From positions 62,001 to 126,000 of the forward strand of contig DASSCU010000063.1 of NCBI GenBank assembly GCA_035697485.1: DNA of 64,000 bases, in the 5' to 3' direction. Positions 23,820 to 35,118 of the stretch are shown piece after piece. Each line of letters opens with the position of its first letter. Position 1 is the first letter of the stretch. The position numbers were made by a program, and so were the translations under genes. The notes below the pieces were generated by a model, which was not told where the DNA came from, did not search any database, and was given only the letters and a program-made list of their open reading frames with translations. Source of the DNA: Actinomycetota bacterium (lineage in GTDB: Bacteria > Actinomycetota > UBA4738 > HRBIN12).

Positions 23820-24632
23820 CTATCGACGGGCAGCCCCGCTCCTCGCGCCGACGCGACCGGCGCCCATGTCGCGGGAGAGACCCCGCGATGTCTCGCGCAC
23901 CGCCGCGACGACCGCGGCGGCGTGCCGCCCCTCGGGCAGGAGCCGTTCGACCGGGCCCACGACGCCGATCGCCCCGACGGAGTGGCCACGGTCGTCGAAG
24001 ACCGGTGCAGCGATCTCGGCCTCTCCGACGATCGCCTCGCCGTCCTCGAGTGCGGTGCCTTCCTCGGCCACCGAGGCGAGCATCGCTTCGAGCACGGTGG
24101 GGTCGGTGACCGTGCGACCGGTGAGCGGCACAAGCTCCGACCCGAGCAGCGCCCGGCGCGATGCCTCCGGCAGATACGCCACGATGGCCTTGCCCAGAGC
24201 GCACGCGTGCCACGGGATCGAGGCGCCTACCTCGAGGATCTGCACCGAGTTGTCGGGGCGGAACACGTGATGCACGATCAGCACGTTCGACCCGTGCAAC
24301 ACCCCCACGCGCACCGCGTCGCCGACCCGCGATGCGAGCGAGTCGGCCCACAGCAGCGACCGTGCCCGCAGCTCGTGGTTGTCGAGGAACGCGTTCCCCA
24401 GCTGCAGCATCGCCGGCCCGAGCCGGTACTTGTCGGTCTCAGGATCCTGCTCCACGAGCTCCTGCGCCTCGAGCGTGCGCAACAGGCCGTAGGCCGTGCC
24501 CTTCGCGAGCCCGAGACGCTCGGCCACCTCGGTGACGCCCATGCGCGACGTGCCCGTGCCGAGCACCTTGAGGATGCGGGCGGCGCGCTCGACCGACTGG
24601 ATCGTGCCTCTGCGCGGTGCCGAACCGGTCAA
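23820..24632 (-). CDS. IclR-family regulator, likely of the glycerol/dihydroxyacetone genes
   Basis: 270 residues: an N-terminal winged helix (SVERAARILKVLG, then GVTEVAERLGLAKGTAYGLLRTLEAQELV, about 11-65) and the C-terminal IclR effector domain (about 80-255) with GSNVLIVHHV, PWHACALGKAIVAYL and GAIGVVGPVERL. The chosen start is TTG at 24630-24632, which overlaps the dhaL stop in TTGA; no ATG or GTG lies before the helix-turn-helix. Coupling to a DhaL protein and divergence from glpF suggest control of this island, like GylR of actinomycete glycerol operons. Ligand unproven. Confidence 0.85.
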   Translation of the reverse strand: MTGSAPRRGTIQSVERAARILKVLGTGTSRMGVTEVAERLGLAKGTAYGLLRTLEAQELVEQDPETDKYRLGPAMLQLGNAFLDNHELRARSLLWADSLASRVGDAVRVGVLHGSNVLIVHHVFRPDNSVQILEVGASIPWHACALGKAIVAYLPEASRRALLGSELVPLTGRTVTDPTVLEAMLASVAEEGTALEDGEAIVGEAEIAAPVFDDRGHSVGAIGVVGPVERLLPEGRHAAAVVAAVRETSRGLSRDMGAGRVGARSGAARR

Positions 24633-25318
24633 CGACCACCGTCCAACGATCGTGCGAGGGCAGCGAACAGGTACGAGGTCGAGGTTGCCCCCGGATCCTG
24701 GTGCCCCACGCTCCTCGGTCCGAGGTACGAGGCCCGGCCCTTGCGCGCCTGCATCGGCACCGTCGCACGCATGCCCTCGCGCGCGGCCTCGGCCGCTTTG
24801 CGGGACGCCGTGCCCCCGTCGCCGCCGGCGCGCAGCTCCCGCTCGAACGCCGCGAGCGCCGGCGCGTAGGCGTCGACGATCGTCTTGTCGCCTTCCTCCG
24901 CCGCCCCCAGCCCCTGGATGCCGTCGAGGCCCGAGCGCAGCGCCTTCAGCAGGTCCTCGGCATCGAACGACTCGACGTCGCCGAACGCCTCCCCGGCCCG
25001 GCGCAGACACGTGCCGAACAACGGTCCGGCCGCGCCTCCCACGCGATAGATCAGGGTGCCCCCGACCCGGATCAACAGCTCACCCGCGGGAAGGTCGGAG
25101 GTCGCGTCGAGGTCGGTCACGGCGGCCGAGAATCCGCGATCCATGTTGATGCCGTGGTCGGCGTCGCCGATCGCCGCGTCGAGCTGGGTCAGGAAGTCCC
25201 GGTTGGCGGCGATCTCGTCGGCACATCCGCGAACCCAGCGCCGGATGGTAGTGGCGTCGTACACGTCGAACACCCTCTCACGCCCGTCGTCGGCCCGTTC
25301 TGTCACCGCCGCCACCAT
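24629..25318 (-). CDS. DhaL-like dihydroxyacetone kinase ADP-binding subunit (paralogue coupled to IclR)
   Basis: 229 residues with the DhaL signature AAIGDADHGINMDRG, where the aspartates chelate two Mg ions at the nucleotide, the VGGAAGPLFGTCLRR loop, DKTIVDAYAPA, and the C-terminal RASYLGPRSVGHQDPGATS. All metal ligands look intact. It is a diverged second copy of the DhaL at 27344. It is translated with the IclR regulator (TTGA overlap), not with dhaK. In E. coli DhaL also acts as coactivator of the DhaR regulator, so this copy may be a sensor for its IclR neighbour. ATG with GGAGG 6 bases upstream. Confidence 0.85.
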   Translation of the reverse strand: MVAAVTERADDGRERVFDVYDATTIRRWVRGCADEIAANRDFLTQLDAAIGDADHGINMDRGFSAAVTDLDATSDLPAGELLIRVGGTLIYRVGGAAGPLFGTCLRRAGEAFGDVESFDAEDLLKALRSGLDGIQGLGAAEEGDKTIVDAYAPALAAFERELRAGGDGGTASRKAAEAAREGMRATVPMQARKGRASYLGPRSVGHQDPGATSTSYLFAALARSLDGGR

Positions 25319-25357
25319 CGAACCGCCTCCAGGCCGTGTCAACTTCCACTTTCGAGT

Positions 25358-25374
25358 GTTCGACGATACCGAAC
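25358..25374. promoter_or_regulatory. Inverted repeat in the dhaL/glpF divergent spacer (candidate IclR operator)
   Basis: GTTCG, 7 bases, CGAAC: a perfect 5-7-5 palindrome 40 bases upstream of the dhaL-IclR start. The rest of the spacer to 25499 is AT-richer than its surroundings and has two TGTTGCGA direct repeats. Palindromes of this kind are plausible IclR targets; binding is inferred. Confidence 0.45.
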
Positions 25375-25499
25375 GATGTTCTCTATGGTCGATGTTGCGA
25401 CGGTATGACGGGACTATTGACAACTTGTTGCGAACAGAGTTGGCTCGCCTCGACATGGTCCCGACGGTGGGGCCCGGTACGGAGGGGGTGGTCGCTCAG

Positions 25500-26231
25500 A
25501 TGTTCCTCGGAGAGGTGGTCGGCACGGCGGTGCTGATCTTGCTCGGCGACGGGGTCGTCGCCGGGGTGCTGCTGAACAAGTCGAAGGCGCAGAACGGCGG
25601 ATGGATCGTCGTCACCTGGGCATGGGGGATGGCGGTCTTCATGGGCGTGCTGGCGAGCGTTGCGGTGAGCGGCGGCGTCGCGCACCTGAACCCCGCCGTC
25701 ACGATCGGCCTCGCCTCGATCGACCTGGTCGAGTGGAGCGACGTGCCGACGCTGATCGCAGGTCAGTTCCTCGGCGCGGCGATCGGGGCCTTGCTCGTGT
25801 ACCTCTCATACCTCGTGCACTGGGCCGACACCGACGACCCGGGTCTGAAGCTCGCGGTGTTCTCGACCGGGCCGGCGATCCGCAACACGGCCGCGAACCT
25901 GATCACCGAGATCGTCGGCACGTTCATGCTGGTGTTCGGGATCCTCGCGATCGTGCCGCAGGTCTTCGCCGCGGACCTCGCCACGGGAGGGTGGCTCGAG
26001 ACCGGCGCCTTGCCCGTCGGCCTGCTGGTCCTCGTCATCGGCCTGTCGCTCGGCGGACCGACCGGGTACGCGATCAACCCCGCCCGCGACCTCGGCCCGC
26101 GCATCATGCACGCGATCCTGCCGATCGCCGGCAAGGGCAGTTCCGACTGGGCCTACTCATGGATCCCGGTCGTCGGGCCGATCGTCGGCGGCGTGCTCGG
26201 CGCGCTGGCGGCCGACGCGGTCTTCGGTTGA
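25500..26231 (+). CDS. glpF: Glycerol facilitator (MIP-family aquaglyceroporin)
   Basis: 243-residue channel for passive glycerol entry. Six membrane helices and two half-helices carry the NPA motifs HLNPAVT (after helix 2) and [10 protein letters not shown]. The Asp after the second NPA (NPARD) marks glycerol-type channels over strict water channels. The start ATG 25500 follows GGAGGGGG by about 11 bases and begins just before the first helix; an ATG at 25455 is possible. First gene of the plus-strand glycerol/dihydroxyacetone unit. Confidence 0.92.
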
Positions 26232-26298: not shown

Positions 26299-27300
26299 AT
26301 GAAGAAGTTGATCAACGACCCGGCGAACGTCGTCCGGGAAGAGCTCCAGGGCATCGAGGCGGCCCACCCCGACCTCGTGAAGGTGTCGTACGACCCGTAC
26401 TTCATCACCCGGGCCGACGCCCCCGTGCAGGGCAAGGTCGCCCTCATCTCGGGGGGAGGGTCCGGACACGAGCCGATGCACGGTGGATTCGTCGGCGCGG
26501 GCATGCTCGACGCCGCCTGCCCCGGCGAGGTGTTCACCTCTCCCACCCCCGACCAGATGGAAGCGGCCACCAAGGCCGTCGACGGCGGGGCCGGCGTCGT
26601 CCACATCGTGAAGAACTACACCGGCGACGTCATGAACTTCGAGATGGCGGCGGAGCTCTGTCGCGCCGAGGGCACCGAGGTCGAATCCGTCGTGGTCGAC
26701 GACGACGTGGCGGTACAGGACTCCCTGTACACCGCGGGTCGTCGGGGAGTGGGCACGACCGTACTGATGGAGAAGATCGCCGGTGCGGCCGCGGAACAGA
26801 AGCGGCCCCTGAAGGAGGTCGCCGACATCTGCCGAGAGGTGAACGCCAACGGCCGCTCGATGGGCATGGCGCTCACGTCGTGCACCGTGCCGGCGGCGGG
26901 CAGTCCAACCTTCGAGCTGGGCGACGACGAGATCGAGATGGGCGTCGGCATCCACGGCGAGCCCGGGCGCGAGCGCATGAAGATGAAGCAGGCGTCGGAG
27001 ATCGTCGACATGATGGCGACCGCGATCGTCGACGACCTTCCGTTCGGCAAGGGCGACCAGGTGCTGGCGTTCGTGAACGGCATGGGCGGCACACCCATGC
27101 TCGAGCTGTACGTGGTCTACAACGAGCTCAACAAGTTCCTCTCGGGCCGCGGCATCACGATCTCGCGGAACCTGATCGGCTCGTACATCACCTCGCTCGA
27201 GATGGCCGGGTGCTCGATCACGCTGCTGAAGCTGAGCGACGACTTCACGCAGCTGTGGGACGCTCCCGTGAAGACGGCCGGTCTGCGGTGGGGGGTCTGA
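26299..27300 (+). CDS. dhaK: Dihydroxyacetone kinase substrate-binding subunit DhaK
   Basis: 333 residues. DhaK binds dihydroxyacetone covalently as a hemiaminal on a histidine, H219 in GVGIHGEPG; other active-site motifs are [13 protein letters not shown] (52-63) and [10 protein letters not shown]. Phosphate comes from DhaL-bound ADP/ATP recharged by DhaM. The length is that of the PTS-dependent single-domain form, not the fused ATP-dependent kinase. It lies 67 bases after glpF and is followed by dhaL. Confidence 0.95.
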
Positions 27301-27343: not shown

Positions 27344-27994
27344 ATGAGCGAGGGCACGGGCATCTCCTACGACGCCGTCGTGGCGTGGCTGAAGGCCTTC
27401 GCGGCGACGATCGCCGAGAACAGGGCCTACCTGACCGAACTGGACTCCGCGATCGGCGACGCCGACCACGGCATCAACATGGATCGCGGGTTCCAGGCGG
27501 TGTTGGCGAAGCTCGACTCGTCCCCGCCCGGCGACGTCGGCGCCCTCTTCAAGGTCGTCGGCATGACCCTCGTCTCGACCGTCGGCGGGGCCGGCGGGCC
27601 CCTCTACGGCACGTTGTTCCTGCAGCTCGGCATCGCGACGGCCGGCAAGGATCCGATCACGGCCGACGACTGGGCGGCCGCCCTCGCCGCCGCGGTCTCG
27701 GGCGTGCAGGCACGTGGGAAGGCGGAGCCCGGCGACAAGACGATGGTCGATGCGCTGATCCCCGGCCGTGACGCGTTCGCCGCCGCGATCGCAGAGGGAG
27801 CGGACCTGCCCGCGGCGCTCCGTCGTTCGGCCGATGCCGCCGAGCAGGGCATGACCGACACGATCCCGCTCGTCGCCCGCAAGGGACGGGCGAGCTACCT
27901 CGGTGAGCGCAGCGCCGGGCATCAGGATCCCGGCGCGACCTCGAGCTACCTGTTGCTGCGAAGCGTCGCCGACACTTGGGTCGGCGACGCCTGA
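27344..27994 (+). CDS. dhaL: Dihydroxyacetone kinase ADP-binding subunit DhaL
   Basis: 216 residues, the catalytic partner of the adjacent DhaK. It carries a tightly bound nucleotide that is re-phosphorylated by DhaM. Motifs: SAIGDADHGINMDRG (Mg ligands), VGGAGGPLYGTLFLQ, GDKTMVDAL and RASYLGERSAGHQDPGATSS. It is clearly homologous to the DhaL-like protein at 24629-25318 but more standard in length. Start ATG 43 bases after dhaK, and 18 bases before glpK. Confidence 0.94.
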   Translation: MSEGTGISYDAVVAWLKAFAATIAENRAYLTELDSAIGDADHGINMDRGFQAVLAKLDSSPPGDVGALFKVVGMTLVSTVGGAGGPLYGTLFLQLGIATAGKDPITADDWAAALAAAVSGVQARGKAEPGDKTMVDALIPGRDAFAAAIAEGADLPAALRRSADAAEQGMTDTIPLVARKGRASYLGERSAGHQDPGATSSYLLLRSVADTWVGDA

Positions 27995-28012: not shown

Positions 28013-29509
28013 ATGGCTGAGTACGTCGGAGCCCTCGACCAGGGCACGACCAGCACGCGCTTCATGATCTTCGACCACGGCGGCCAGGTCGTGGGGGTCG
28101 ACCAGAAGGAACACGAGCAGATCTTCCCCAAGCCTGGCTGGGTCGAGCATGACCCCGCCGAGATCTGGACCCGCAGCCAGGAGGTCATCGCCGGCGCCCT
28201 CGCGAAGGCGAGTCTGTCGGCGGGCGACATCGCTGCGATCGGCATCACGAACCAGCGTGAGACGACGGTGGTGTGGGACCGCTCCACGGGACAGGCGATC
28301 CACAACGCGCTCGTGTGGCAGGACACACGCACCGACCAGATCTGCAACGAGCTCATCGCCGACGGCGGCCAGGACCGCTTCCGCGAGAAGACGGGGCTCC
28401 CGATCGCCACGTACTTCTCCGGCCCGAAGGTCCGATGGATCCTCGAGAACGTCGAAGGGGCGCGGGCTCGAGCCGATGCCGGCGAACTGGCGTTCGGCAA
28501 CATCGACACCTGGTGCATCTGGAACCTCACGGGCGGCGTCGACGGTGGCCAGCACGTCACCGACGTGACCAACGCCAGCCGCACCATGCTGATGAACCTC
28601 GAGACGCTGGATTGGGACGACGATCTCCTGAACTCGATCGGCGTGCCTCGCTCGATGCTGCCCGAGATCCGCTCTTCGAGCCAGGTCTACGGTGAGGCGG
28701 TCGGCGCGGCGGCGGGCGTCGCAGTTGCCGGCGATCTCGGCGACCAGCAGGCGGCCCTGTTCGGCCAGACCTGCTTCGATGTCGGAGAGGCCAAGAACAC
28801 GTACGGCACCGGGTCGTTCCTGCTGCTGAACACGGGGACGGAGGCGGTGCAATCGAAGAACGGGCTGATCACGGGCGTGGGCTACAAGATCGGAGACCAG
28901 CCTGCCGCATACATGCTCGAAGGCTCGATCGCGATCACGGGTGCCCTGGTGCAGTGGCTGCGCGACAACCTGAAGATGATCGACGCCTCACCCGACGTCG
29001 AGGCGCTCGCGCGGACCGTCGACGACAACGGAGGCGTCTACTTCGTGCCCGCGTTCTCGGGTCTCTTCGCCCCCTACTGGCGCAGCGAGGCTCGAGGCGT
29101 GATCGCGGGACTCACCCGCTTCGTCAACGCCGGGCACATCGCGCGTGCCACGCTCGAGGCCACCGCGTGGCAGAGCCGCGAGGTGGTCGACGCCATGAAC
29201 GCCGATTCCGGCGTCGAGCTCACCTCGCTGAAGGTCGACGGAGGCATGGTGTACAACGACCTGCTGATGCAGACACAGGCCGATGTGCTCGGCGTGCCGG
29301 TGATCCGCCCGACCGTGGCCGAGACCACATCACTCGGCGCCGCCTACGCGGCCGGCCTCGCGACGGGGTTCTGGAGCACGATCGACGATCTGCGCGGCAA
29401 CTGGGGCAAGGACAAGGAATGGACACCCGTCATGGACGCGGCCGAGCGTGAGAAGGAGTACGCGATGTGGAAGAAGGCCGTGACCCGCACCTTCGACTGG
29501 GTCGAGTGA
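28013..29509 (+). CDS. glpK: Glycerol kinase
   Basis: 498-residue FGGY kinase making sn-glycerol-3-phosphate from glycerol and ATP. The N-terminal [15 protein letters not shown], the substrate motif [27 protein letters not shown] and [11 protein letters not shown] (C-terminal signature) are present, at the family's usual length. AGGAGG precedes the ATG by 7 bases. It lies between dhaL and a short repeat protein, in the same likely operon as glpF and glpA. Confidence 0.96.
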
Positions 29510-29523
29510 GCCGGGAGGTCGCG

Positions 29524-29757
29524 ATGAGCGAGAAGGAACACGACGAGCACGAGGGCACGTTCGCCGAAGGGCAGGCCGAGCACGACCCCGACACCGACAC
29601 CCACGGCGACTTCGCCGAGGGCCAGGAGCAGGAACATCACGAGCCCGAGGAGGTCGAGAAGGGCACGTTCGGCGAGGGCCAGGCCGACGAGGACGAGCGC
29701 CCCGACACCCCGGAGCGCGGCGACTTCGCGGCTGGCCAGGAACGGGAGGACGACTGA
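29524..29757 (+). CDS. Small acidic protein with four GxFAEGQ repeats
   Basis: 77 residues of unknown function, strongly acidic and low in hydrophobics, so probably disordered. Four copies of a seven-residue motif are regularly spaced: GTFAEGQ, GDFAEGQ, GTFGEGQ and GDFAAGQ, separated by Glu/Asp/His-rich linkers. The start ATG 29524 follows GGGAGG, 14 bases after the glpK stop. It sits between glpK and glpA, so it may bind or organise glycerol enzymes; that is inference only. Confidence 0.75.
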   Translation: MSEKEHDEHEGTFAEGQAEHDPDTDTHGDFAEGQEQEHHEPEEVEKGTFGEGQADEDERPDTPERGDFAAGQEREDD

Positions 29758-29790: not shown

Positions 29791-30975
29791 ATGAACGGGG
29801 GTGCGGGCTCGACTCCACACATCTTGATCGTGGGCGGCGGCGGCACCGGTGGCGCCCTCGCCCACGATCTGGCCCTCCGAGGCGCGCGCGTGACCCTCGT
29901 CGAGCGCGGCGAGTTCACGTCAGGCACGACCGGGCGCCACCACGGCCTGCTGCACAGCGGGGCGCGCTACGCCGTGAACGATCAGGAGTCCGCGGTGGAG
30001 TGCATCGAGGAGAACATGCTGCTCCGCCGCATCGCGCCCGGGTCCTTCGAGGAGAACGACGGGCTGTTCGTGGGCGTGACCGACGAGGACATGACGTACC
30101 TGCCCGGCTTCCTCGCGGGGTGCGAGGAGACCGGCATCCCGACCCAGGTGCTGCAGCCGGACGAGGCACTTCGCCTGGAACCTCTGCTGAACCCGGCGCT
30201 GAAGGTCGCGGTGCGCGTACCCGACGCCACGATGGACGCGATGCGCATGCCGCTCCGGTTCTTCGCCACGGCGAAGGCGAACGGGGCCGACCTGTTGAGT
30301 TGGGTCGACGTGATCGACCTCGAGCTCGCGGCGGGGGTCGTCTCGGGGGCGCGGGTGCGCGACCTCGTCACCGGCCGTGAGACCCGCATCGGCGCCGACC
30401 TCGTCGTGAACGCGACCGGTCCATGGTCGGAGCAGGTCGCGCGCATGGCTGGGGTCGACGTGCCGATCCGCCCCTCGCCCGGCGTGATGCTCGCCGTGCG
30501 AGGGCGGCTCTGCAACATGGTGATCAACCGGCTCCACAGCTCGGGAGACGGGGACATCGTGGTGCCCCAACGCGCTCTGTCCGTCATCGGGACGAGCTCG
30601 TGGGTGGTCGAGGATCCCGACGATCTCGGCGTCCCCTCCGACCACGTCCAACGCATGATCGACGAGGGGTCGGTGCTCGTGCCGGCGGTGCGTGAGGCGC
30701 CCTATCGCTCTGCCTGGTCCGCCGCTCGTCCGCTGATCGGTTCCCGTGACGATGCAGATTCGGGACGTGAGCTCTCCCGCACCTTCAAGACGATCGACCA
30801 CGCGGTCGACGACGGCGTCGAAGGCTTCGTCACGATCACCGGCGGGAAGGGCACGACGCTGCGGGGCATGGCCGAGGTCTGCGCCGATGTGGTGAGCCGC
30901 AAGCTCGGCATCGAGACCGCGTGCCGCACGCGAGACACGGTGCTCCTCCCCCACACGGCGGCGTTCGCGGCATGA
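29791..30975 (+). CDS. glpA: Glycerol-3-phosphate dehydrogenase flavoprotein subunit (GlpA type, short form)
   Basis: 394-residue FAD enzyme of the DAO fold, oxidising sn-glycerol-3-phosphate to dihydroxyacetone phosphate. It matches E. coli GlpA closely over the catalytic region: GGGGTGGALAHDLALRG (FAD), TTGRHHGLLHSGARYAV, VNATGPWSEQ, and ITGGKGTTLRGMAE. It is about 150 residues shorter than typical GlpA (about 540) and lacks the C-terminal BFD-type [2Fe-2S] domain. No glpB or glpC follows; the overlapping downstream genes are succinate-dehydrogenase-like electron carriers. L-2-hydroxyglutarate dehydrogenase is a weaker alternative. Confidence 0.9.
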   Translation: MNGGAGSTPHILIVGGGGTGGALAHDLALRGARVTLVERGEFTSGTTGRHHGLLHSGARYAVNDQESAVECIEENMLLRRIAPGSFEENDGLFVGVTDEDMTYLPGFLAGCEETGIPTQVLQPDEALRLEPLLNPALKVAVRVPDATMDAMRMPLRFFATAKANGADLLSWVDVIDLELAAGVVSGARVRDLVTGRETRIGADLVVNATGPWSEQVARMAGVDVPIRPSPGVMLAVRGRLCNMVINRLHSSGDGDIVVPQRALSVIGTSSWVVEDPDDLGVPSDHVQRMIDEGSVLVPAVREAPYRSAWSAARPLIGSRDDADSGRELSRTFKTIDHAVDDGVEGFVTITGGKGTTLRGMAEVCADVVSRKLGIETACRTRDTVLLPHTAAFAA

Positions 30976-31730
30976 CGGACGACGCTGTCACGACTCGACG
31001 GCTCCGCGTGCACCGATTCAAGCGCGGCGACCACCAGCCCCACATCGAGGAGCACGACGTGCCGGTGGACGAGCGCACGACGGTGCTCGAGGCTCTGCGA
31101 TGGATCCAGCTCCACCAGGACCTGACGCTCGGGCTGCGGCATTCGTGCTTCCATGCGTCGTGCGGCACGTGCGGGGTCCGCGTGAACGGCAAGGAGCGGC
31201 TCGCGTGTGTGACGAAGCTCTCCGACATCTCGGGCACGGTCACCGTGGACCCGCTCGCGAACCTGCCGGTGCTCCACGACGTGGTCGTCGACATGGGGCC
31301 GTTCGTGGCGCGCTACCCAGAGCCGCATCCGATCGTGCGGGGGAGCGAGTTCCTGTCCGAGTCCCGCACGGCCGACGGTATCGACGAGCACGAGCGCTAC
31401 GAGGACTGCATCGAGTGCGGGCTCTGTCTCTCGGCGTGCCCCGTCGCCGCGACCGATGACACGTACCTGGGCCCCGCCGCCCTGGCGTACGCGCAGCGGC
31501 TGCTCGAGGAGGCGCGCGGCGCGGATCGTGACGCGATCCTCGACTGGGCCGACCAGGACACGGGCGCGTGGCGATGCCATGCCGCGTTCGAGTGCACGGA
31601 AGCCTGCCCGAGCGACGTGCGACCCGCCCAGCGGATCATGGCCCTGCGCAAGGAGCTGCGTCACCGCAGGAAGGATCGCGATCTCGAGGTGCCCGAGCGC
31701 CCGTCGAGCGCGAGCGAGGCCTCGGCATGA
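30972..31730 (+). CDS. SdhB/FrdB-type iron-sulfur subunit paired with GlpA
   Basis: 252 residues with the full three-cluster layout of succinate dehydrogenase subunit B. The [2Fe-2S] motif is CFHASCGTCG with a later C in ERLAC. The [4Fe-4S] motif is CIECGLCLSACP, and the third cluster is set by CHAAFECTEACP together with the preceding CP. Its ATG overlaps the glpA stop (ATGA), so it is made stoichiometrically with GlpA. No SdhA gene is present; GlpA takes that position. I infer that it carries electrons from GlpA flavin to the membrane subunits. Confidence 0.88.
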   Translation: MTDDAVTTRRLRVHRFKRGDHQPHIEEHDVPVDERTTVLEALRWIQLHQDLTLGLRHSCFHASCGTCGVRVNGKERLACVTKLSDISGTVTVDPLANLPVLHDVVVDMGPFVARYPEPHPIVRGSEFLSESRTADGIDEHERYEDCIECGLCLSACPVAATDDTYLGPAALAYAQRLLEEARGADRDAILDWADQDTGAWRCHAAFECTEACPSDVRPAQRIMALRKELRHRRKDRDLEVPERPSSASEASA

Positions 31731-32191
31731 ACGGGTCGCATACCCCCGCGCCCGAGCGCGATCCCGGCGTGGAGGAGATCCTGCGCAGCCGTCGCGAGGC
31801 GGGCCCGGTGCCGCGGAAGCTGCCGGGGCCCGTCGCCTGGTTCGACGTGCGTCGCCGCAGCACCGGCCATCTCGCGTTCTCGATGAATCGCATCACCGGC
31901 CTCGGGATCGTGTTCTACCTTTACCTGCACCTGGCCGTGCTGACGCTGCTGCTCGGAGGCGAGGACTCCTGGAACGACTTCCTCGAGATCGCGACGACGC
32001 CGTTGTTCCTCGGGCTCGACGTGCTGCTGGTCTTCGGCCTGCTCGTGCACGGCCTGAACGGCACGCGACTGGCGCTGGTCGGGAGCGGCTTCGTGACGAG
32101 CCACCAGAAGGCACTGTTCTGGTCGCTCATGGCGTTCGGCACGATCCTGCTCGTCTACACGGCGCTCCACGTCTTCGGGGCCGGCGGCTGA
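31727..32191 (+). CDS. SdhC-like cytochrome b membrane anchor
   Basis: 154 residues. A polar N-terminus of about 45 residues precedes three membrane helices. Family signatures are SMNRITGLGIVFYLYLH at the first helix and the haem-ligand motif LLVHGLNGTRL in the second, as in cytochrome b556 subunits of succinate:quinone reductases. ATG overlaps the iron-sulfur subunit stop (ATGA). It should anchor the GlpA complex and form part of the quinone site. Confidence 0.85.
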   Translation: MNGSHTPAPERDPGVEEILRSRREAGPVPRKLPGPVAWFDVRRRSTGHLAFSMNRITGLGIVFYLYLHLAVLTLLLGGEDSWNDFLEIATTPLFLGLDVLLVFGLLVHGLNGTRLALVGSGFVTSHQKALFWSLMAFGTILLVYTALHVFGAGG

Positions 32192-32562
32192 TGGCGACGG
32201 CCACCCCACAACGGTCGACGAGGTCTCGCAGCTGGCGATGGACAGCGATCACCGGGATCTCGCTGCTGGTGCTCGTGACGATCCACATGGTGGCGCACCA
32301 CTTCGTCGTCGAGGAGGTCGGCGGCCTGCGCACGTACCAGCACGTGCTCGACTACGTCAGCACGCCGATCATCTTCGTGATCGAAGGGGTGTTCCTGGTC
32401 GTCGTGACCGCCCACGCGATGCTCGGCCTGCGCTCGGTGCTGCTGGACTTCGGGCTGTCGGACCACCGGCGGCGGTTGCTGGAACGCGGTCTCGTCATCC
32501 TCGGGGTCCTGACGGTCGCGTACGGGTTCGCGCTGATCGGCGTGCTGGCCTCGAGGGCCTGA
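32191..32562 (+). CDS. SdhD-like cytochrome b membrane anchor
   Basis: 123 residues with three membrane helices. It shows IHMVAHHFV at the end of the first helix and the haem-binding pattern TAHAMLGLRSVLLD in the second, analogous to the partner subunit. A candidate axial histidine in each anchor would allow two haems. Its ATG overlaps the previous stop (TGATG). Six bases separate it from the downstream dhaM fusion, so the redox complex and the phosphorelay are on one transcript. Confidence 0.83.
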   Translation: MATATPQRSTRSRSWRWTAITGISLLVLVTIHMVAHHFVVEEVGGLRTYQHVLDYVSTPIIFVIEGVFLVVVTAHAMLGLRSVLLDFGLSDHRRRLLERGLVILGVLTVAYGFALIGVLASRA

Positions 32563-32568
32563 CGGGTC

Positions 32569-35118
32569 GTGGTCGGCGTCGTCATCGTCTCCCACAGCGC
32601 CCGCATCGCCAAGGGCGTGGCCGAGCTCGCGCGTGAGATGGGCGGATCCGAGGTGAGGCTCGAGACGGCCGGCGGACTCGAGGCCGTCGAAGGGCCCGAT
32701 GGTCCCGAGCATCCGATCGGCACGGATGCGGTCCTCGTGATGCAGGCGATCGAGCGGGCATGGTCCGACGACGGCGTGCTCGTCCTGATGGACCTGGGCA
32801 GCGCGGTGCTCTCGGCCGAGATGGCCGTCGATCTGATCGGCGACGAGCGGCGTGACCGGATCCTGCTCTGCGAGGCCCCGCTCGTCGAGGGTGCCGTCGC
32901 GGCGGCGGTCACCGCCAAGCTGGGCATGCCGCTCGAGGCGGTCGCCGCGGAAGCCCGTTCGGGGTTGGCAGGCAAGATCGCCCACCTCGCAACCGATGCA
33001 GAGGAGGGCGCGAGACCAACCGTGGCCGGCGAGCCGTCCGGAGAGCCCGGCGCGGCGTCGGCCGAGGCCGGTGCGACCGCGGTAGCCGTGTTCCCCGTCG
33101 ACCTCCCCCACGGGCTCCATGCTCGGCCTGCCGCCCGTTTCGTGCAGACCGCCGCCGGATACGAAGCCTCCGTGAGCGTGCGCAACGTCACGACCGGTGT
33201 CGGCCCTGCCGACGCGAGCAGCCTGAACGCCGTGGCGACGCTCGGCGTGCGTGCGGGCCACGAGGTCGAGGTGCGAGCCGAGGGGCCCGGTGCGAGGGAC
33301 GCGATCGCCGAGATCCGGGCGCTCGCCGCTCGCCGGTTCGACGAGCCGCTCGATGCCACGGCGGTGGAGACGGCGGCGCTGCCCGAGCCCGTCACCGAGC
33401 CGGATCGAGGAACCGCCGGGGCTTTCGACGAGGGCGTGGTGACGGGCTTCGCCGCCTCGCCCGGCGTCGCCGTGGGCGAGCTGCGTCGATTCCACACGCC
33501 CCCCCTCGACGTGCCCGAGACCGCGGGGACCGACCCTGCCGAGGAGCACGCCACGCTCGACGCCGCCCTGCGCGCGACCGCCGATGCGATCGTGGCGCAG
33601 CGCGACGCGGTCGCGCTGCGCGCCGGCGAGGACGAGGCCAGCATCTTCGACGCGCACCTGCTGTTCCTGCGCGACGAAGCCCTGCTCGGGCCGGCCCGCC
33701 GGGCGATCGCCGAGCGAGGCCGCACCGCGGCCGTCGCATGGCGCGACGCGGTCGACGCCGTGGCCGCCGAGTGGGACGTGCTCGACGACGAGTACATGCG
33801 TGCGCGGGCGATCGACCTGCGCAGCGTCGGCGCGCAGGTGCTGGCCCGCGTCCTCGGCGTGCCCGTGCCGGCGCCCCGGCTCGACGAACCCGGCATCCTC
33901 GTCGCCGCCGACCTGACGCCCGCCGACACGGCCGGGCTCGATCCGGCGATGACGCTCGGCATCGTCACCGTCCACGGCGGTCCGACCTCGCACGCCGCCG
34001 TGCTGGCGCGCGCGCTCGGCATCCCGGCGGTCGTGGGCGTCGGACCCCGCGTGCTCTCGCTCGCCGAGGGTTCGTCGCTGGCGGTCGATGGCGCCAGCGG
34101 CGAGGTCGTCGTCGATCCTCCGCCCGACGTCGTCGCGCGGTTCGAGTCCGAGCGACGGGAGCGGGCCGAGCGCCTGGCTGGGTTGTTGGCGAGCGCGGGT
34201 GAGCCCGCCACGACCATCGACGGTACGACGGTCGAGGTGGCGGCGAACGTCGGCGGACCGGCGGAGGTGGCCGCCGCCGTCGCCGCGGGCGCCGACGGCA
34301 TCGGGCTGTTCCGCACCGAGTTCCTCTTCATGGACCGCGCCGCCCTGCCGGACGAGGACGAGCAGGAGGCCGCCTACCGCGCAGCCGGCGAGGCGCTCGA
34401 CGGACGGCCGCTCCTCGTCCGCACGCTCGACGCGGGCGCCGACAAGCCGGTCGCCGCCTTGGGACAGGCGCGCGAGGAGAACCCGTTCCTGGGGGTGCGC
34501 GGCATCAGGCTCGGCCTCGCTCGCCCCGAGCTGCTGCTCGCACAGCTCCGGGCGCTGCTCCGCGTCGCCGTCGATCACCCGGTCCGCGTGATGTTCCCCA
34601 TGATCGCGACGACCGGCGAGCTCGAGGAAGCTCGCGCCGCACTCGATCGAGCGCGTCGGGAGACGGCCCTCGACCCGGCGATCGAGGTCGGCATCATGGT
34701 GGAGGTGCCGTCCGCCGCCCTCACGGCCGCCAGCCTGGCGGCGGACGCCGACTTCTTCTCGATCGGTACCAACGACCTGACCCAGTACACCCTCGCGGCC
34801 GATCGAGGCAACGAGCACGTGGCCGCGCTCAACGACCCTCTGCATCCGGCCGTGCTACGCCTGATCGCGGCCACGGCCGACGGTGCCGAGACGCACGGCC
34901 GATGGGTAGGCGTCTGCGGCGAGCTCGCCGGTGACGAGCTCGCGACCGCGCTCCTGCTCGGGCTCGGGGTGCGGGAGCTCTCGATGGCAGCCCCGGCGAT
35001 CGCGAGCGTCAAGGACGCCGTCCGCTCGACGACCGTCGCCGACGCCCGGGCGATCGCCGCCCGGGCCCTCGCGTGCACGACGGCGGCCGAGGTCCGCGAT
35101 CTGCTCGGCTCGGCGTAG
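32569..35118 (+). CDS. dhaM: DhaM-HPr-Enzyme I fusion (PEP-dependent phosphoryl donor for dihydroxyacetone kinase)
   Basis: 849 residues. Domains in order: DhaM EIIA-like (about 1-130) with the phospho-His in VIVSHSARIAKG (H9), HPr (about 155-245) with LPHGLHARPAA, and full-length Enzyme I (about 270-849) with GGPTSHAAVLAR (His about 475), the PEP-binding GIGLFRTEFLF, SIGTNDLTQYTLAADR and VCGELAGDE. E. coli DhaM has only a truncated Enzyme I part; here it looks complete, so one chain could take phosphate from PEP to DhaL. No sugar-specific PTS permease is nearby. GTG start 6 bases after the anchor gene. Confidence 0.93.
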   Translation: MVGVVIVSHSARIAKGVAELAREMGGSEVRLETAGGLEAVEGPDGPEHPIGTDAVLVMQAIERAWSDDGVLVLMDLGSAVLSAEMAVDLIGDERRDRILLCEAPLVEGAVAAAVTAKLGMPLEAVAAEARSGLAGKIAHLATDAEEGARPTVAGEPSGEPGAASAEAGATAVAVFPVDLPHGLHARPAARFVQTAAGYEASVSVRNVTTGVGPADASSLNAVATLGVRAGHEVEVRAEGPGARDAIAEIRALAARRFDEPLDATAVETAALPEPVTEPDRGTAGAFDEGVVTGFAASPGVAVGELRRFHTPPLDVPETAGTDPAEEHATLDAALRATADAIVAQRDAVALRAGEDEASIFDAHLLFLRDEALLGPARRAIAERGRTAAVAWRDAVDAVAAEWDVLDDEYMRARAIDLRSVGAQVLARVLGVPVPAPRLDEPGILVAADLTPADTAGLDPAMTLGIVTVHGGPTSHAAVLARALGIPAVVGVGPRVLSLAEGSSLAVDGASGEVVVDPPPDVVARFESERRERAERLAGLLASAGEPATTIDGTTVEVAANVGGPAEVAAAVAAGADGIGLFRTEFLFMDRAALPDEDEQEAAYRAAGEALDGRPLLVRTLDAGADKPVAALGQAREENPFLGVRGIRLGLARPELLLAQLRALLRVAVDHPVRVMFPMIATTGELEEARAALDRARRETALDPAIEVGIMVEVPSAALTAASLAADADFFSIGTNDLTQYTLAADRGNEHVAALNDPLHPAVLRLIAATADGAETHGRWVGVCGELAGDELATALLLGLGVRELSMAAPAIASVKDAVRSTTVADARAIAARALACTTAAEVRDLLGSA

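Follow-up and report, generated by a model that had tools for sequence, protein, structure and literature searches.

The short glpA gene and the three succinate dehydrogenase-type genes that follow it in an actinobacterial glycerol operon very probably encode one membrane enzyme, a predicted glycerol-3-phosphate:menaquinone oxidoreductase built on the complex II chassis. In the proposed mechanism, the FAD of GlpA would oxidize glycerol-3-phosphate to dihydroxyacetone phosphate, and GlpA, instead of handing electrons to a BFD cluster of its own, GlpB and GlpC, would occupy the position on the SdhB-like subunit that SdhA has in complex II; we infer this docking geometry. Electrons would then pass through a [2Fe-2S], a [4Fe-4S] and a [3Fe-4S] cluster into an anchor of two subunits, in which two haems b would each be held by a pair of histidines, and from there to menaquinone; the haems, the electron acceptor and the direction in which electrons flow are all predicted. 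The enzyme would work together with GlpF, GlpK and DhaKLM in the catabolism of glycerol and dihydroxyacetone. The idea that GlpA takes the place of SdhA on this chassis came from a sequence-only reading of the locus, and it is strengthened by a separate sdhCDAB locus, distinct GlpA and SdhB clades, co-evolution of the two proteins, natural fusions and a contrast in predicted folds. Further support comes from the dihaem ligands, the lack of a GlpD, a sister operon in which glpABC fills the same slot, and the failure to detect SdhA in some genomes. The arrangement is real and conserved, and the enzyme is probably functional.

Operon layout and subunit features

In the window, by which we mean the whole 64-kb stretch of DNA analysed, the glycerol utilization genes lie on one strand in the order glpF-dhaK-dhaL-glpK-[small ORF]-glpA-sdhBCD-dhaM (Table 1). 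The boundaries of glpA, sdhB, sdhC and sdhD agree with those given by the sequence-only reading, as do their overlaps (ATGA at glpA/sdhB and at sdhB/sdhC, TGATG at sdhC/sdhD). The true start of glpF is probably downstream of 25056, with the MIP domain beginning near 25497. The small acidic ORF between glpK and glpA is kept in sister genomes, including one locus (L050) that carries glpABC in the slot, and is therefore not specific to the Sdh type. The last gene of the operon combines DhaM, HPr and enzyme I in one chain, which is nearly the whole phosphate relay for the dihydroxyacetone kinase. Upstream of glpF on the opposite strand, a second DhaL-like ORF (24629-25456, -) was recognized by eye, and adjoining it an ORF (23820-25010, -) that reads by eye as IclR-like with a helix-turn-helix.

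Table 1. Genes of the glycerol operon in the 64-kb window and the profile matches behind their assignment.
Gene and product	Coordinates	Strand	Evidence or feature
glpF, MIP family glycerol facilitator	25056..26231	+	PF00230, E 2.6e-38
dhaK, dihydroxyacetone kinase subunit	26299..27300	+	TIGR02363, 495 bits, above cut-off
dhaL, dihydroxyacetone kinase subunit	27344..27994	+	TIGR02365, 248 bits, above cut-off
glpK, glycerol kinase, source of glycerol-3-phosphate	28013..29509	+	TIGR01311, 734 bits, above cut-off
small ORF between glpK and glpA	29524-29757	+	very acidic; four GxFAEGQ-type repeats
short glpA, FAD flavoprotein without C-terminal BFD [2Fe-2S] domain, 394 aa	29791..30975	+	DAO PF01266; TIGR03377 positions 1-379/530
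sdhB-like iron-sulfur subunit, [2Fe-2S]/[4Fe-4S]/[3Fe-4S] motifs	30972..31730	+	TIGR00384 above cut-off
sdhC-like anchor, predicted haem ligands H68 and H108	31727..32191	+	PF01127
sdhD-like anchor, predicted haem ligands H32 and H75	32191..32562	+	PF01127
DhaM-HPr-EI fusion, GTG start	32569..35118	+	TIGR02364, PF00381, TIGR01417

The loss of the C-terminal BFD domain from GlpA, claimed in the sequence-only reading, is borne out by the profile searches: the protein scores 432 bits against TIGR03377 (cut-off 552.8) over the N-terminal part of the model, and Pfam detects DAO and no BFD. The CxC...Cx4C BFD motif was absent from every short GlpA in a motif scan. The claim that the catalytic core is retained also held, with the GlpD-type active-site positions conserved. 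The positions equivalent to R54, Y55, R317 and R332 of E. coli GlpD, which together with K354 we take to be active-site residues, are invariant in 83/83 short GlpAs, and that of K354 is kept in 82/83. Pfam found no DAO_C domain (PF16901, the C-terminal domain of GlpD/GlpO) in the window GlpA. In a quick tree, as was also used for SdhB, with SH-aLRT as the only support measure, the 83 short GlpAs cluster together and separate from the canonical GlpAs included (SH-aLRT 99). GlpB and GlpC were reported missing from the operon, and neither was found in the window operon in the gene list or with Pfam profiles; the canonical relatives L050, L051, L053 and L054 encode both.

The SdhB-like subunit was described as carrying intact cluster motifs, and we found all 11 cluster cysteines in place (TIGR00384, 189 bits against a cut-off of 88). 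The same 11 cysteines are kept in 76/76 GlpA-linked SdhBs. The third ligand position of the [2Fe-2S] site is always Cys in the GlpA type, giving a four-Cys site, in contrast to most of the SdhA-linked SdhBs compared, which have Asp at this position (21/28). The 76 GlpA-linked SdhBs and 32 SdhA-linked SdhBs fall on opposite sides of one branch (SH-aLRT 95).

Both anchors contain the haem motif that had been noticed, although its spacing, given as H-x(2-3)-G-x-R, should read H-x3-G-x-R (HGLNGTR in SdhC, HAMLGLR in SdhD). A second conserved His is located in the first helix of each anchor. In the Sdh2 complex of M. smegmatis (6LUM), the axial ligands of the two haems are SdhC H47/H87 and SdhD H65/H107 (PMC7447783). 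H68 and H108 of the window SdhC align to H47 and H87, and H32 and H75 of SdhD align to H65 and H107. The two histidines are conserved in 65/65 and 64/65 SdhC sequences, respectively, and those of SdhD in 61/61. With four His matching the 6LUM ligands, the anchors are predicted to bind haem b by bis-histidine ligation, as is characteristic of complex II.

Distribution, variant loci and exchange of the dehydrogenase cassette

A genome search for the glpA-sdhB-sdhC-sdhD order, suggested in the sequence-only reading, found the arrangement in dozens of genomes spread over several phyla, which is far beyond chance. In eight sister genomes from the same family, this GlpA is again part of the glycerol operon; it is followed by sdhBCD in seven of them, and in the eighth the contig ends inside glpA. 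The glpA-sdhBCD genes are also found in two genomes from other actinobacterial families (G052 and G106). From a scan of ~85,000 species genomes, the best 80 of 161 relatives were taken, and these belong to the Actinomycetota, Chloroflexota, Bacillota, Spirochaetota and Verrucomicrobiota, the Chloroflexota carriers among the best 80 being from Anaerolineae, Caldilineales, Thermoflexus and Ktedonobacter. Chloroflexota, Actinomycetota, Bacillota and Verrucomicrobiota have the cassette, and Spirochaetota its GlpA-SdhB core. After removal of copies and addition of the window loci to the best 80 of 161, sdhB lies downstream of the short glpA on the same strand at 78/79 evaluable loci, and both anchors are also present at 55/68. 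Most of the genomes are MAGs.

As the ~85,000-genome scan is biased to near relatives, the result was checked against 400 evenly sampled Chloroflexota genomes, of which 93 encode a GlpA. Among Chloroflexota GlpAs with 50% identity or more to the window GlpA, SdhB is the next gene in 18/21 evaluable cases; among those with 48% or less, GlpB is next in 8/8 checked cases. Plasmid-borne copies of the cassette were considered and dismissed: of 37 plasmid records, the 30 listed hold GlpAs from enterobacteria, vibrios, aeromonads or haloarchaea with 40-44% identity, and no sdhB lies beside the haloarchaeal plasmid GlpAs at two loci inspected.

In G010, a genome of the same family, the operon reads glpF-dhaK-dhaL-glpK-glpA-glpB-glpC-dhaM and encodes a full-length GlpA. 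Its DhaK is nested within the glpA-sdhBCD genomes in the DhaK tree; the dehydrogenase cassette has thus been exchanged between constant flanks. The window family sits among Chloroflexota in both the GlpA and the SdhB tree, which fits a transfer from that phylum. Two Chloroflexota loci (L263 and L136) carry glpABC and glpA-sdhBCD in tandem. A further locus, L092, may have the same tandem layout on its short contig.

Other loci differ in what accompanies GlpA and SdhB. In a Bacillota locus (L131), the two are followed by a protein with two CCG domains of the HdrB/GlpC type (L131:7170-8186), and a GlpA-SdhB-CCG enzyme is possible there. Three Spirochaetota loci (L138, L146, L153) encode GlpA-SdhB with no adjoining anchor gene. 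In fen Chloroflexi (L118-L129), the genes after GlpA-SdhB encode an ApbA/PanE-like protein and PlsY, and one fen genome (G310) has a second copy with both anchors (L257). A single anchor is present at L099 and L104. Given the anchors missing in Spirochaetota and some fen Chloroflexi, GlpA-SdhB can exist without SdhCD, and comparison of the variant loci indicates that GlpA-SdhB is the usual core while its outlet varies. At three loci (L238, L240, L242), a short GlpA belonging to this group stands without any neighbouring SdhB, and the gene beside it, transcribed convergently, encodes a LacI-family regulator. Two short GlpA-like proteins outside this group were also seen (L059, L062), one adjoining a PgsA-like gene and the other near HAD-like and sugar-isomerase-like genes.

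Pairing of GlpA with SdhB and alternative readings

Pairwise distances of GlpA and SdhB are strongly correlated (r 0.88; partial r 0.80 given GlpK), with 0/999 permutations reaching as high a value. The glpA of Actinotalea lenta continues in frame into sdhB, giving a single ORF (L116:7926-9959), whose product contains DAO, Fer2_3 and Fer4 domains. The in-frame fusion is present in 5/5 Cellulomonadaceae genomes that have this GlpA, from 101 genomes of the family sampled, and in one of the five the contig ends inside SdhB. The linkers vary in length and sequence and none contains a stop; the five fusions, all from one family, likely go back to one fusion event. The natural Actinotalea fusion was modelled with AlphaFold from 21 paired GlpA+SdhB rows, drawn from loci with both genes in one frame and with intergenic stop codons read as Gly. 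The model reached a pTM of 0.80 with a mean pLDDT of 77.7, compared to a pTM of 0.54 for a control, a GlpK-GlpA read-through joined likewise (17 rows), whose pLDDT of 80.8 was above that of the fusion; the larger part makes up a similar share of the chain in both (0.55 vs ~0.57). The pTM of the fusion, an indirect measure set against one control, suggests that the modelled GlpA and SdhB share a defined interface. Foldseek groups the GlpA part of the model with GlpD and GlpO.

The sdhBCD genes could instead provide spare succinate dehydrogenase subunits for an SdhA encoded elsewhere, with GlpA as a soluble or peripheral protein that just happens to be encoded in the same operon. SdhB and the anchors are clearly homologous to subunits of complex II, and an SdhA-type protein is encoded in the source genome and in 27/29 sampled genomes. 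However, the single SdhA of the source genome (3.4 Mb, 96% complete), located at C49, is accompanied by its own SdhB and by two Sdh_cyt-type anchors just upstream, a complete sdhCDAB set; an SdhA without its own sdhBCD, which the sequence-only reading had named, if shown to use these subunits, as a finding that would count against the GlpA pairing, is not what this genome holds. The C49 SdhB is 33% identical to the window SdhB. The SdhA-type proteins of the sampled genomes likewise nearly always occur with their own SdhB. No SdhA was found in G304 and G313; in G323, PF02910 gave no more than a weak match and there is no second SdhB, the three genomes being possibly incomplete. With SdhA provided with its own partners, the GlpA-linked SdhBs in a separate clade and GlpA fused to SdhB in five genomes, we reject this reading as very unlikely.

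A GlpA-SdhBCD complex might also be real and yet act mainly on another polyol phosphate, or work mostly in the opposite direction, with quinol as the electron donor for dihydroxyacetone phosphate reduction. Related short GlpA-like proteins are found outside glycerol operons (L062), so the substrate could vary. Against a different substrate, the operon includes glpF and a full-score glycerol kinase, and the GlpD-type active-site positions are invariant in nearly all 83 proteins; the reverse reaction would be uphill by about 0.1 V on textbook potentials. We regard both variants as very unlikely. Little probability is also left for a scheme in which GlpA uses SdhB just to hand electrons on to a soluble acceptor, with the anchors serving as a tether and no quinone being reduced via haem. 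The Spirochaetota and several fen Chloroflexi, with GlpA-SdhB in the absence of SdhCD, would suit such a scheme, but both anchors accompany the core at most evaluable loci and the four haem ligands are essentially invariant. The three lone short GlpAs and the anchor-less loci do count against the proposed GlpA-SdhBCD enzyme. Consistent with the proposed enzyme, PF16901 was not found anywhere in the source genome, which makes GlpA the only FAD glycerol-3-phosphate dehydrogenase detected there, and the presence of MenA points to menaquinone.

Relation to known systems and implications

A similar arrangement has been proposed for archaea. In Thermofilum pendens and relatives, glpA is followed by sdhB, sdhC and sdhD, and a GlpA-SdhBCD complex was drawn from synteny (Schmerling et al. 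2025, PMC11962113); the proposal consists of one figure panel and two sentences and rests on synteny. The statement in the sequence-only reading that no enzyme of this makeup had been described thus needs amendment, although the arrangement was not reported there for bacteria, in which glpA is said to consistently co-occur with glpB and glpC (PMC11962113). Beyond this paper, our literature search found no description of the GlpA-SdhBCD layout. The Thermofilum genes have the same order, and they too were interpreted as encoding a glycerol-3-phosphate dehydrogenase that relies on Sdh-type subunits for electron transfer and anchoring. The likeness seen is in gene order, and what is added here is the occurrence in several bacterial phyla, the fusions, the assignment of dihaem ligands and the slot exchange with glpABC. 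What appears to be new is how the genes are distributed in bacteria, together with the fusions and the variant partners, the layout itself having been proposed for archaea.

Compared to E. coli GlpABC, the predicted enzyme has a homologous GlpA FAD domain, would catalyze the same reaction and occupies the same operon slot in sister genomes; the BFD domain, GlpB and GlpC are gone and SdhB, SdhC and SdhD are present instead. With the dihaem succinate:menaquinone oxidoreductase Sdh2 of M. smegmatis (6LUM, PMC7447783) it shares a three-cluster SdhB, two anchors and the four haem-ligand histidines, but it has the DAO-fold GlpA in place of the SdhA flavoprotein. The GlpA-CoxG pair of Sulfolobus acidocaldarius is similar in that GlpA is truncated and a replacement partner provides membrane binding, although CoxG only tethers and contributes no Fe-S or haem subunits (PMC11962113).

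We consider it likely, from these comparisons of genes and genomes, that the loci represent a widespread bacterial class of haem-containing glycerol-3-phosphate:menaquinone oxidoreductases. The complex II Fe-S subunit would serve as a portable module, the GlpA-SdhB core, even fused, being combined with SdhCD, a CCG protein or no outlet, and the two haems could make glycerol-3-phosphate oxidation electrically coupled, in contrast to oxidation by GlpD. The gene arrangement contradicts the published statement that bacterial glpA pairs with glpBC (PMC11962113), and it would give a specific function to genes that are likely annotated as succinate dehydrogenase subunits. A natural single-chain GlpA-SdhB is on offer for structural work, and the predicted dihaem anchor raises the testable question of whether glycerol-3-phosphate oxidation via two haems costs or conserves membrane potential. 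The electron-transfer arm of complex II may serve another dehydrogenase, which would make the SdhA slot exchangeable.
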